64,000 nucleotides of DNA. It comes from Erysipelothrix sp. HDW6C (GTDB taxonomy: Bacteria; Bacillota_I; Bacilli_A; Erysipelotrichales; Erysipelotrichaceae). Of this stretch, positions 12,449 to 16,352 are shown one piece after another. The stretch covers positions 1,488,001-1,552,000 of the forward strand of contig NZ_CP049861.1 of NCBI RefSeq assembly GCF_011299615.1, given 5' to 3'. The position numbers and the translations under genes were made by a program. The notes under the pieces were generated by a model, which had not been told where the DNA came from, ran no database searches, and saw only the letters and a list, made by a program, of their open reading frames with translations. Positions within the stretch are counted from its first letter, which is position 1. Each line of letters opens with the position of its first letter.

Positions 12449-12497
12449 AAAAGCATTGTTGGACTCCTTGATGTCCTTACAATGCTTTTGTTTTTTA
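12447..12497. terminator. Bidirectional terminator between regulator and ABC gene
   Basis: AAAGCATTGT pairs with ACAATGCTTT around a roughly 20-base loop, flanked by an A run on one side and a T run on the other, so it can stop both convergent transcripts. Confidence 0.7.
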
Positions 12498-13121
12498 TAA
12501 GTGAATTACATGATCTGCGATTGCAACTAGTTCTGGATCATGCGTTACAACTATAAGTGTCTTTCCCATTTCTTGAAGTTTCTTTAATAATGAAAATATG
12601 ATATGTTTGTTGTCATCATCAAGACTTCCCGTTGGCTCATCTGCCAATACAATCTCACAAGGCTTTAATAAGAGGCGCGCAATAGCGATTCGCTGTTGTT
12701 CCCCTCCTGAACACTGATAGACCTTTTGTGTCTCAAAACCACTCATACCTACAGTCTCCAACGCAGCACGAATCGCCTCCTCCTTATCCACACCTTTCAC
12801 AGACTCCATTGCTAGTTTTAAATTGTACGCAACAGTTTTATCATCAACTAAGGCAAAATTTTGAAATAAATATCCGATTTTATTACGTAAGGCTAATGTG
12901 GCTGAACGTGAGAATGGTTTTATATCGTGTTCATCAAGGATTGTGATAGTACCACTATCTGGCGCATCCAACAAGCCCATTAAATTCAGAATCGTACTTT
13001 TTCCAGTTCCGGATGGTCCTGAAATTACTGTAAATGAATTACGCTTAATATTTAATGTCAGATTATTAAGCACCAGTTTATCTCCGAAACTTTTGCTGAC
13101 TGTATCAAATGTGATAACCAT
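12495..13121 (-). CDS. ABC transporter ATPase, lactococcin-972 export/immunity group
   Basis: Stand-alone nucleotide-binding subunit of 208 residues. Walker A GPSGTGKST, Q-loop FQN, signature CSGGEQQRIAIARL and Walker B IVLADEPTGSLD are intact. It resembles the MacB/LolD-type ATPases found beside lactococcin 972-like bacteriocins. Start is ATG 13121, fused to the stop of the upstream membrane gene as TAATG and preceded by AAAGGAG; a longer frame to 13178 lies inside that gene. With the 728-residue membrane protein it should form the exporter or the immunity pump; which of the two is not settled for this family. Confidence 0.88.
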   Translation of the reverse strand: MVITFDTVSKSFGDKLVLNNLTLNIKRNSFTVISGPSGTGKSTILNLMGLLDAPDSGTITILDEHDIKPFSRSATLALRNKIGYLFQNFALVDDKTVAYNLKLAMESVKGVDKEEAIRAALETVGMSGFETQKVYQCSGGEQQRIAIARLLLKPCEIVLADEPTGSLDDDNKHIIFSLLKKLQEMGKTLIVVTHDPELVAIADHVIHL

Positions 13122-15307
13122 TATGAATCTCCTTTGAGCACCGACTGTGCCATTTTTCTCTCTGTAGTATGGATCCAAATCAATACCAATACAGCATCAA
13201 TCAATAAGAACATAACCATAAATAGTAGTAAATATCCATTACTCGTGGGTTTAGCAAATTCGAATATCTTGAAAAAACTGTTAGTCAGCACCAGAAGAAA
13301 CGAAACTGTAGTAGATAAAAAAATAGTAGTAATGAGCCTCTCGTAGCGCTTGACTCTCGAGAATCCTAAAAGATACTGTACAGCAAGCAACTTCCGATTT
13401 CTCTGGTAGAATGCCTCTACTATCATTGATGAAAAAAGAATAATCAGAATTATAACACCCCCGAGTACTACTAGAAGCTGCGTCCAAGCTCTTCTAAACT
13501 TCAATAAGTAATCAGCCATTAAATCGCTGACAGGAAAAATACTGGGATCTACTCCGCCATCTTTCAGTGTTTCTATGAAAAAAATAAAGTTATCTTCTTC
13601 GAAGGATCTTGCATAAAGTGAGAAAGAATTTATACCGTTTAAATGGATTTCATCGTTGCTATCAACGATTACATAGAGCGGTGGATTTTCTACTATATCA
13701 TTTTCCATAAGAACACCAGTTGAAAAAATTGGTGTGTATTGAACAATTTCAATTGGGACGTTATCTGGATTACGAATTGAACCAACTTTGTCTTGAGGAA
13801 CAATAAGTGTCGAAACCTCTAAATTCTTAGTGTCAAGAAGTTTACCAGAACTTGTGTAAAAATCATACTCTTTTAGAGCACTACGATTCACGACTAAGTA
13901 ATCATACTCAAGTCCGTATTGATGAAAAGAATCATTGCTTACAAATGAAATGTCAAAACTTTCGGCGCTCTCAAAAACAAACTTATTCTTCTCAATGCTA
14001 TACTGGTAATTGGTTTGATTTCCATAATCAATGTGATCAATCAGAACATCCCCGACTCGTTGTGATTGCGAGTTGCCGGCCGCAATATACCGATTCAATA
14101 CTGAAATAAAATCTAAAGACTCGATTAGTATCGGAACCATAGTAAGAATTGTAATGACTTTGAAAACAGTGCTCATGAATTGCAATGAACGTGTCTTAAT
14201 ATTTCCCTTAACACTCTTTAAACGCATTAATGCGCTAAATAACGTAAAGCAAGCAACTGTAGTCACAAGTGTAATTGCAAGAAAGATCATACATATAATG
14301 ATCAAAATTTTAAAGAATCTCAGCGTCACATGATTGTAGAAGTTAATGCGGAAAATCGCTAATATAGCGAGAGTCGCAATAAATGCAATGCAAGATTTTA
14401 GTATTGTTGAACCATAGACAATTCTAAATGTCTTTAGTCTTCGATTTCCATGAATATCTCGAATTGCGAGTTCTTTAGCATTATCTAAACTAACTCCAAC
14501 TAGCACAGAAATCAGCGAAAACATTGTTAAATATAACATTGATCCAGGATACACTAATGGGTTTAGTGAAAAAGGCATTGTCATGCTTGGCTCAATATAT
14601 GACTGAATTACTTTATCTTCTCCATAAAACAAATTGAATGTTTCACTTTCGATTAACAGAGTTTTATCATCATATGCAGTTACAAAGTTTTCGATGTAAA
14701 ACTCCGCAAAATAGTTCTCAACAAAATTCCCAACATCTTCAGGAGGAACCAGAAAATACATCATTAGTGTCGGACTTTCGACTAGTTTAACTGGTTTATC
14801 TTTTAGTTGGTGAATAGGAACGTATGTAATACGCTCGTTGAGTATACTTGTTGTCGGTGAATCTCGCCACCTATCAAACGGCAAAACATAGGAATCATTA
14901 CTATATACATCAAAGTTAGTTATTATTCTGCGTTCACTTTCATCACTAAAACGATAATCACTCACATCACTACGAATTCTGAGATGATCAAATAATTCCA
15001 GCTTGCTTGAAGAAATATACATTGTCATCATTTGACTATTATTTGTCATTATATCACGATCGATTACATAACCGTCATATCCAATGGATTCATAGAATTC
15101 TACAACGGTTGAACTAAATTGATTATTTGGTTTAGCAAATGTATCAGCACTGAGGTTAAAGTAGACTGCAACTACTTTTTCATCCACTTGTTCTTGGTAA
15201 AGAATTGTGTATTGAGATTGGTTGTACCCACTTTCAAAGGAATCAAAAGCAATATTAAAGCTGAGAAATGCAACGAGAATAGAAAATAAAATATTCAATT
15301 TACGCAT
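13121..15307 (-). CDS. Bacteriocin-associated integral membrane protein (DUF1430-like)
   Basis: Large membrane protein of 728 residues. One N-terminal membrane segment (about 5-22) is followed by an extracellular region to about residue 240, then three to four membrane segments (about 245-400), a second extracellular region (about 400-620) and three C-terminal membrane segments (about 630-720). This FtsX/MacB-like plan, the AKELAIRDIHG string after a membrane segment and the place between bacteriocin gene and ATPase match the family found with lactococcin 972-like peptides. ATG 15307 follows AGGAGGTCCAC. A terminator hairpin separates it from the peptide gene, implying lower expression than the peptide. 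Local A+T content seems higher than in the flanking housekeeping genes, hinting at acquisition. Confidence 0.78.
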   Translation of the reverse strand: MRKLNILFSILVAFLSFNIAFDSFESGYNQSQYTILYQEQVDEKVVAVYFNLSADTFAKPNNQFSSTVVEFYESIGYDGYVIDRDIMTNNSQMMTMYISSSKLELFDHLRIRSDVSDYRFSDESERRIITNFDVYSNDSYVLPFDRWRDSPTTSILNERITYVPIHQLKDKPVKLVESPTLMMYFLVPPEDVGNFVENYFAEFYIENFVTAYDDKTLLIESETFNLFYGEDKVIQSYIEPSMTMPFSLNPLVYPGSMLYLTMFSLISVLVGVSLDNAKELAIRDIHGNRRLKTFRIVYGSTILKSCIAFIATLAILAIFRINFYNHVTLRFFKILIIICMIFLAITLVTTVACFTLFSALMRLKSVKGNIKTRSLQFMSTVFKVITILTMVPILIESLDFISVLNRYIAAGNSQSQRVGDVLIDHIDYGNQTNYQYSIEKNKFVFESAESFDISFVSNDSFHQYGLEYDYLVVNRSALKEYDFYTSSGKLLDTKNLEVSTLIVPQDKVGSIRNPDNVPIEIVQYTPIFSTGVLMENDIVENPPLYVIVDSNDEIHLNGINSFSLYARSFEEDNFIFFIETLKDGGVDPSIFPVSDLMADYLLKFRRAWTQLLVVLGGVIILIILFSSMIVEAFYQRNRKLLAVQYLLGFSRVKRYERLITTIFLSTTVSFLLVLTNSFFKIFEFAKPTSNGYLLLFMVMFLLIDAVLVLIWIHTTERKMAQSVLKGDS

Positions 15308-15320
15308 GTGGACCTCCTAC

Positions 15321-15358
15321 AAAAAAGAAGTCTGCAACACATTTGTTATGTTGCAGAC
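15321..15358 (-). terminator. Terminator/attenuator between bacteriocin gene and its transport genes
   Basis: GTCTGCAACA and TGTTGCAGAC (15330-15339, 15349-15358) form a perfect 10-bp stem followed on the minus strand by TTCTTTTTT, ten bases after the peptide gene. Partial read-through would give excess peptide over transporter. Confidence 0.85.
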
Positions 15359-15368
15359 TCGCCATTAT

Positions 15369-15716
15369 CTATACAGACGGACCACCGTAGTACCTATGGG
15401 TCTGAACCCCTGTACCGTAGCCACCAATCGTAGTGGGTCCCGATAACTGATTACCTGTATTGGACCTTAATACTCCACCATTCATTAGGATGCTTACAGT
15501 TCCACCTCCACCACGGTACCATGATGCGGACGTTGTTCCATAGTTTGTTCCAATTGTATATCGTGCGGAATAGGTCGCATAATTCCCAGCATAATTTTGT
15601 CCAGACTTTAGACTTCCAGATTCAAAACTTGCTTCCATTTCAGTTGTATTGAATCGTAAAAGTCCTCCAAATGCTAGAAGCGTCAAAACAAGTGTAATTC
15701 GTAGTTTTTTTGCCAT
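15369..15716 (-). CDS. Secreted Gly-rich peptide, candidate lactococcin-972-type bacteriocin precursor
   Basis: Precursor of 115 residues. Residues 1-33 look like a Sec signal: MAKKLR, a hydrophobic core ending GGLLRF, and a possible signal peptidase site after TTEMEA. The predicted mature part of about 80 residues is rich in Gly, Ser, Thr and Tyr, has no cysteine, and ends HRYYGGPSV; lanthionine or disulphide chemistry is therefore excluded. Sequence similarity to lactococcin 972 is weak by eye, so the assignment rests on gene order (peptide, DUF1430-like membrane protein, ABC ATPase), Sec secretion and size. ATG 15716 has a strong AAGGAGG site. It could instead be a peptide signal or an unrelated exported protein. 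Confidence 0.65.
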   Translation of the reverse strand: MAKKLRITLVLTLLAFGGLLRFNTTEMEASFESGSLKSGQNYAGNYATYSARYTIGTNYGTTSASWYRGGGGTVSILMNGGVLRSNTGNQLSGPTTIGGYGTGVQTHRYYGGPSV

Positions 15717-15934
15717 ACTATTACCTCCTTGTTGGATAGCGCTTATCCTATTAGCATATTATCATAATTTACAGGAATTTATTGTGTGTAATTTCACATT
15801 GAAGAATTCTAGGAATAACACTATGAACTGCATAGTACTGCTGAAAATATGTAGTGATTCTTATCAATTACTATACATGTGGCCATCAAACTACAACTTG
15901 ATTACTGTATTGAGTTTTTCATGACGACTCATTT
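15717..15934 (-). promoter_or_regulatory. Upstream region of the bacteriocin gene
   Basis: Gene-free, very A+T-rich. A TATGATAAT string about 45 bases before the ATG is the best -10; no clear -35. At 15785-15798 the plus strand reads TGTGTAATTTCACA, a near-palindrome like the Crp/Fnr pattern TGTGA-N6-TCACA, close upstream of the expected promoter. Confidence 0.3.
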
Positions 15935-15965
15935 CAAAAAAAACGCACCCAATTATAGGGTGCGT
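15935..15965 (-). terminator. Terminator of the rimP-nusA-infB-rbfA operon
   Basis: ACGCACCC / GGGTGCGT stem (15943-15950, 15958-15965) with a seven-base loop, followed on the minus strand by eight T. Confidence 0.9.
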
Positions 15966-15987
15966 CTTCGACTTCAGACGCGAATGA

Positions 15988-16332
15988 CTATTCGTCGTCT
16001 TTTTTAATTTTCTCTAACAAAGTTGCAATGTGATTTCCATATTCAATCGACTCATCGAGCTTAAAGATAAGCTCGGGAGTACGTCGGATGGATAACGCTT
16101 TGCTAACTTCACTGCGTAGGATTCCCTTGGCACGGTTTAATGCTTCCATACCAGGAACTTTATTCTTTTCTTCCAAGAAACTTACATAGATGGTTGCGAA
16201 TGAAAAGTCATTCGTGACTTCAACATCCGTAACACTTACAAATGAAAGGCTTGGATCATTCAAGCGATTCAGAATAATGGGTGCGAGTTCTCGCTTGATA
16301 ATGGACTCGACACGTTCTTTTTTAACTGTCAT
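15988..16332 (-). CDS. rbfA: Ribosome-binding factor A
   Basis: Cold-adaptation factor that binds the 30S precursor near helix 1 of 16S rRNA; 114 residues, a single KH-like domain. Recognisable family strings are RVESIIKRELAPII at the start, DPSLSFVSVTDVEVTNDFSFA in the middle and RRTPELIFKLDESIEYGNHI near the end. ATG 16332 is chosen because GGTGGT lies eight bases before it; a GTG at 16344 lies within that site. Last gene of the operon, 20 bases after infB and followed by a strong terminator. truB, which often follows, is absent. Confidence 0.95.
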   Translation of the reverse strand: MTVKKERVESIIKRELAPIILNRLNDPSLSFVSVTDVEVTNDFSFATIYVSFLEEKNKVPGMEALNRAKGILRSEVSKALSIRRTPELIFKLDESIEYGNHIATLLEKIKKDDE

Positions 16333-16352
16333 AGTTACTACCACCGTTTCTA

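Follow-up and report, generated by a model that had tools for sequence, protein, structure and literature searches.

We examined a 64,000-nucleotide stretch of the genome of Erysipelothrix sp. HDW6C (contig NZ_CP049861.1, forward-strand positions 1,488,001 to 1,552,000; hereafter, the window). Three of its genes, all on the minus strand, encode in order a small peptide with a Sec signal, a large membrane protein, and an ATP-binding cassette (ABC) ATPase. We interpret them as a bacteriocin-plus-immunity cassette that works like that of lactococcin 972 (Lcn972), and assign this interpretation a probability of about 0.74. The first-pass annotation had proposed a Lcn972-type cassette with a DUF1430-like membrane protein from the gene order, a terminator behind the peptide gene, and tight TAATG coupling of the last two genes. 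All three features could be read directly (Table 1), and the family matches described below agree with the proposal.

The peptide is rich in Gly (22%), Ser (13%), Thr (13%), and Tyr (10%), ends in GGPSV, and is predicted to be basic in its mature form (pI 9.6). None of its 115 residues is a cysteine, as had been noted, but this is not a sign of divergence because mature Lcn972 lacks cysteine too. Alignment with two homologues suggests cleavage after A29, which would leave a signal of residues ~1-29 and a mature peptide of about 86 residues, rather than the 80 originally predicted.

The C-terminal 129 residues of the membrane protein pass the cut-off of Pfam family DUF1430 (PF07242; 32.7 bits against 28.2, E = 9.6e-8), and the whole protein, at 24.6 bits, falls below it. 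Its sole match in NCBIfam is TIGR01654 (bacteriocin-associated membrane protein) at 51 bits and E = 7.8e-14, which is below the cut-off of 189; in the phylum sample, 39 genomes have a match and only one passes this cut-off. Hydropathy reveals eight hydrophobic segments, arranged as one transmembrane segment, a large ectodomain, and three transmembrane segments, with the whole pattern then repeated. A profile comparison using 21 relatives aligned the two halves with each other (315 columns, probability 97%, E = 1e-10), as it did their permease parts by themselves (E = 7e-8). The alignment of the halves, a weak match of the N-terminal permease part to FtsX (E = 0.095), and the placement of DUF1430 and FtsX in a single Pfam clan, noted in the ECOD paper (PMC6588880), make an internally duplicated, fused double permease of FtsX/MacB-like type the most likely identity of the protein. 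Searches for plasmid or viral copies of this protein returned none.

The best match of the ATPase among 210 families is TIGR03608, the Lcn972 ATPase, which it matches over its full length at 237 bits, 18 bits under the cut-off of 254.85. Its Walker A (GPSGTGKS), signature (CSGGEQQR), and Walker B (LADEP) motifs are all present. We place its start at the ATG at 13121, which overlaps the TAA stop of the membrane-protein gene; the TTG start listed at 13178 lies upstream.

Seven bases separate the GGAGG of the peptide gene from its ATG. Promoter-type sites in the region upstream are in no excess over shuffled sequences, making the candidate promoter weak. Behind the peptide gene lies a hairpin with a 14-bp stem and a T-rich tail, whose folding energy of -21.3 kcal/mol (z = -4.1) was equaled by none of 200 shuffles. 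The hairpin behind the ATPase gene is probably a bidirectional terminator serving this gene and the convergent gene for a phosphotransferase system (PTS) transcription regulator. We dropped a palindrome-like sequence beside the peptide ribosome-binding site, GGATAAGCGCTATCC, as a candidate operator, as it folds no better than shuffles.

Table 1. Features of the cassette, in window coordinates
Feature	Position	Strand	Evidence
Bacteriocin-like peptide gene, 115 aa	15369..15716	-	Open reading frame, homologues, fold prediction
DUF1430/TIGR01654-type membrane protein, 728 aa	13121..15307	-	Pfam/NCBIfam matches, hydrophobic segments, half-half alignment
TIGR03608-like ABC ATPase, 208 aa	12495..13121	-	NCBIfam match; Walker A, signature, and Walker B motifs read
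Candidate sigma-70-like promoter (weak) upstream of peptide gene	15761..15790	-	TACACA-18-TATGAT, 9/12 matches
Ribosome-binding site GGAGG of peptide gene	15724..15728	-	Direct reading: AAGGAGGTAATAGT-ATG
Terminator/attenuator hairpin, peptide gene to membrane-protein gene	15328..15360	-	14-bp stem, folding energy
Hairpin flanked by T-runs on both sides, ATPase gene to PTS-regulator gene	12449..12489	.	Direct reading: AAAAGCATTGT...ACAATGCTTTT

Homologues and predicted fold of the peptide

Homologues of the peptide occur in Erysipelothrix urinaevulpis and an uncultured Erysipelothrix genome (46% and 32% identity), each directly upstream of the equivalent two genes, and the peptide is therefore more than a chance open reading frame. 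All three peptides carry a signal and are proposed to be cleaved after Ala; their mature parts share twenty invariant residues, and their tails read QxH[RK]Y...GGP or near variants. Searching genome contigs with the single sequence returned no homologue, searching with the alignment returned only these two Erysipelothrix loci, and viral contigs yielded nothing further. The alignment also had weak matches in other Erysipelotrichaceae (E = 0.002-0.1); the best of these within the genus (L053), which looks like a segment of a large region coding for secreted protein, was discarded. In E. urinaevulpis (L032, ~4140), the peptide gene shows GGAGGTG followed by AAAATATC, with no ATG, GTG, or TTG before the signal sequence; either it starts at an ATC codon or the start codon was lost.

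AlphaFold2 modeled the window peptide as an eight-strand beta-sandwich (predicted local distance difference test, pLDDT, 85.1; predicted template modeling score 0.74). When about 1000 PDB chains were re-aligned to this model, Formosin D ranked first (Z = 7.9, 2.4 Å over 71 of 85 residues) and Lcn972 second (Z = 7.3, 1.8 Å over 63 of 66 residues), with the third match at Z = 5.6. Both leading matches are Lcn972-family bacteriocins. The most diverged homologue (37% identity in this comparison) was likewise modeled as a beta-sandwich, in five consistent models at 70-79. These models are good, but not conclusive, evidence of a Lcn972 fold. Since the predicted structure best matches two solved Lcn972-family bacteriocins, the peptide probably works like Lcn972, although it is no member of that family by sequence.

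The resemblance to the Lcn972 cassette (PDB 2LGN) extends to an unmodified, Sec-secreted beta-sandwich peptide (predicted here), a DUF1430 membrane protein, and an ABC ATPase resembling the L_ocin_972 type. However, sequence similarity between the peptides is undetectable (10% identity over the structural alignment). The GGxWxxG...H..xKxH signature is absent from the window peptide, which also has extra N-terminal strands, giving 86 rather than 66 mature residues. Formosin D (PDB 9HKJ) is similar in length, at 3% identity; it weakly matches a genuine Lcn972 peptide itself (E = 0.13), whereas the window family matches no PDB sequence. A direct precedent for kinship to Lcn972 that is clearer in fold than in sequence is mediterrocin of Mediterraneibacter gnavus, which is made as a 114-residue precursor, has an 89-residue mature form, and is accompanied by a DUF1430 protein and an ABC ATPase (PMC12345188). 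Mediterrocin is 18% identical to Lcn972, similar to it in AlphaFold fold, and active in experiments (PMC12345188). The likeness to our peptide is drawn from that published description, and mediterrocin differs in having demonstrated activity and a sequence still annotated as Lcn972 family.

Cassettes with and without a peptide in Erysipelothrix

Peptide, hairpin, membrane protein, and ATPase form a conserved unit in three of 13 Erysipelothrix species, the only places where the peptide was found. The other two cassettes have stable hairpins of unrelated sequence at the equivalent position (z = -2.0 and -5.1). In 14 cassettes the peptide gene is followed by a gap of 25 bases or more; 11 of these have a hairpin with z < -2 there, PF09683 cassettes among them. 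Because it recurs 3' of the peptide gene across cassettes, the hairpin belongs to the cassette design, and it probably sets the ratio of peptide to immunity protein.

We inspected fifteen DUF1430-type cassettes in Erysipelothrix, of which 12 lack the peptide. A tblastn search for a peptide relict upstream of 11 of these 12 found nothing convincing. A maximum-likelihood tree built from the membrane proteins places the three cassettes that have the peptide on different branches, with peptide-less neighbors in each case, and supported branches force three changes between peptide presence and absence. The simplest reading of this tree is that a single ancestral peptide was lost repeatedly while the protective pair was kept, although the peptide may instead have been gained repeatedly. 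By analogy, the peptide-less cassettes fit immunity genes kept after toxin loss: in pneumococci, scbBC of the streptococcin B locus occurs alone in 157 of 571 genomes (27.5%; PMC11796350).

In two Erysipelothrix species (L029, L030), a peptide-less DUF1430/ABC pair follows an aspartase/fumarase-like gene across a 78-bp gap containing a hairpin; these pairs are candidate retained immunity genes. In one genome of the genus (L028), ~12.7 kb separates two related peptide-less pairs, and the second of them immediately follows a different ABC-transporter operon.

The window cassette sits in a 2.36-Mb genome assembled as a single contig, flanked on one side by rbfA, with infB behind it, and on the other by the PTS-regulator gene. 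Its GC content (34-37%) is slightly lower than that of most flanking sequence (36-41%). None of 12 other Erysipelothrix genomes has a copy of this cassette next to rbfA. Those genomes differ in the gene that adjoins rbfA, with truB, a phosphoesterase gene, and a gene for an amino-acid-type ABC transporter among the examples; the window cassette is thus an insertion where the gene content varies. Comparing window positions 15369-16350 with loci L142-L154 placed truB-ribF downstream of rbfA in some genomes and different genes elsewhere.

Proposed function of the cassette and competing explanations

Under the bacteriocin interpretation, the precursor would be exported by Sec and cleaved after about residue 29, and the mature ~86 residues would fold unmodified into a basic, Gly/Ser/Thr/Tyr-rich beta-sandwich with the Lcn972 fold. 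By extension from Lcn972, the peptide would probably inhibit the growth of related Gram-positive bacteria by binding lipid II or a similar precursor of the cell wall. The hairpin would stop most transcripts, leaving the peptide in excess over the downstream pair. Together with the ATPase, the fused FtsX/MacB-like halves would constitute a mechanotransmission (type VII) ABC complex. This complex would confer self-immunity not through export but by dislodging the peptide from its target, the action proposed for BceAB against bacitracin. Immunity by target protection is suggested by the FtsX/MacB-type architecture, the peptide's own Sec signal, the survival of the pair in cassettes that lack the peptide, and the analogy with BceAB, which neither imports nor inactivates bacitracin but apparently protects the target (PMC7038271). 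BceAB-type transporters likewise combine an FtsX-type permease with an ATPase, and their target protection is proposed to occur at the lipid II cycle (PMC7038271). In contrast, the window protein, as read from its sequence, would comprise two fused half-permeases with two ectodomains and lies in a putative bacteriocin operon. The streptococcin B locus (scbABC) is similar in having a peptide with presumed immunity and transport genes, and in the existence of strains with the latter two only (PMC11796350), but its peptide is of the classical Lcn972 type and under competence control.

A number of results weigh against the bacteriocin interpretation. The peptide had no match to PF09683 or TIGR01653 even at E ≤ 10, and a genome-wide search was also negative; the same model recovers true members in other Bacilli, and a true member scores 44 bits. 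Comparing the three-peptide alignment by hhalign with a profile of eight genuine Lcn972-type peptides gave a probability of 0.1% (E = 0.45), and the peptide was unmatched in Pfam, NCBIfam, PHROGs, PADLOC, and PDB sequences. The AlphaFold2 input was a shallow alignment of three rows, from which three of five models failed (pLDDT 38-41) and two were confident. Foldseek found no match to the model at E ≤ 0.001, nor did it among viral models, and the leading Z values, all below 8, could arise from a common beta-sandwich arrangement. For the most diverged homologue, Formosin D (Z = 6.1) was outranked by MATH/TRAF domains (Z = 7.0). Finally, since many relatives lack the peptide, the transporter may have an independent role.

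Because neither the family models nor the Lcn972-type profile recognize it, the peptide is by sequence outside the Lcn972 family. The first-pass annotation was thus right that it looks unlike Lcn972, but, given the predicted fold, the peptide may act more like Lcn972 than that annotation suggested. That annotation had proposed searching with both families, and only DUF1430 matched. It had also listed observations that would count against it: the membrane protein does match DUF1430 and TIGR01654, but cassettes without the peptide do occur in the genus.

The 12 peptide-less cassettes among 15, some beside housekeeping genes such as aspartase/fumarase, would also suit a general envelope-stress or antimicrobial-resistance transporter for which the peptide would be no killer but an accessory present only at times, such as a cue, a decoy, or a secreted structural protein. 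We consider this unlikely, as three diverged homologues each lie directly upstream of the pair, the predicted fold is that of known bacteriocins, and related Bacilli cassettes hold PF09683 bacteriocins in the equivalent slot. The transporter could instead be dedicated to exporting or maturing the peptide, with no role in immunity, as might be supposed from their shared operon and the name of TIGR03608, 'putative bacteriocin export ABC transporter'. Yet the peptide has its own Sec signal and therefore needs no exporter, mediterrocin and streptococcin B have been argued to be Sec-secreted (PMC12345188, PMC11796350), the pair persists where the peptide is absent, and the FtsX/MacB-like architecture comes with no peptidase domain in Pfam/NCBIfam scans of the cassette proteins, which together make a dedicated exporter quite improbable. 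It would be very surprising if the peptide were an inert Gly-rich secreted or surface protein in a coincidental neighborhood: although it has no family match and a composition also common in surface proteins, three diverged cassettes place it identically, their hairpins occupy the equivalent place with differing sequences, and its predicted fold is Lcn972-like.

Bacteriocin finders based on PF09683 or TIGR01653 would miss this peptide, which is given away by the downstream pair and the hairpin. Our literature search found no paper linking Erysipelothrix with lactococcin; hence, if the peptide is active, it would be a bacteriocin from a genus without such a link in the literature searched. The roles of the B and C genes have been shown experimentally in none of the Lcn972 loci (PMC11796350). 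An active peptide would make these roles testable, with the three peptide-bearing and 12 peptide-less Erysipelothrix cassettes providing a natural experiment.

Related cassettes beyond the genus

Across Bacilli, similar units carry PF09683-type or other peptides. The order of peptide, hairpin, membrane protein, and ATPase recurs in Lcn972-type cassettes (L107, L117) and in a cassette of phage SPbetaL7 (L141). Other Erysipelotrichales cassettes of this kind encode further secreted peptides unmatched to families, and most of these cassettes are the nearest tree relatives of the Erysipelothrix cassettes (support 97/96). Most of the peptides have H-x-H within their last ~16 residues (individually p = 0.005-0.025 in shuffles). 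The carriers, which are peptides or open reading frames (L037, L039, L040, L044, L045, L046, and L047), have C-terminal sequences such as GHRHYYGIYQN, CHTHYKYVY, and KHSHMYDKYLN. Six of these seven were scanned against Pfam and NCBIfam without a convincing match, and they are possibly an unrecognized bacteriocin group. We do not claim a common origin with the window peptides, as the profile comparison gave a probability of 0.04%.

These observations suggest that several groups of peptides are served by DUF1430 cassettes; confirmation would make this the more interesting result. A broader proposal, which we advance tentatively and at somewhat less than even odds, is that they serve far more secreted peptide antibiotics than the Lcn972 family. 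Sequence-unrelated groups (Erysipelothrix QxH[RK]Y...GGP, C-terminal HxH, and PF09683) would then use one small beta-sandwich scaffold, and the DUF1430 protein would be a fused FtsX/MacB double permease guarding the target, often retained once the toxin is gone.

The cassette in the SPbeta-like Bacillus phage SPbetaL7 (OQ921347.1, 21770-25015) is apparently a complete classical Lcn972-type cassette, with a GGGTWYHG... peptide, a hairpin, a 723-aa membrane protein, and an ATPase, annotated merely as hypothetical proteins. Phage SPbetaL6 carries the same ATPase as the SPbetaL7 cassette.

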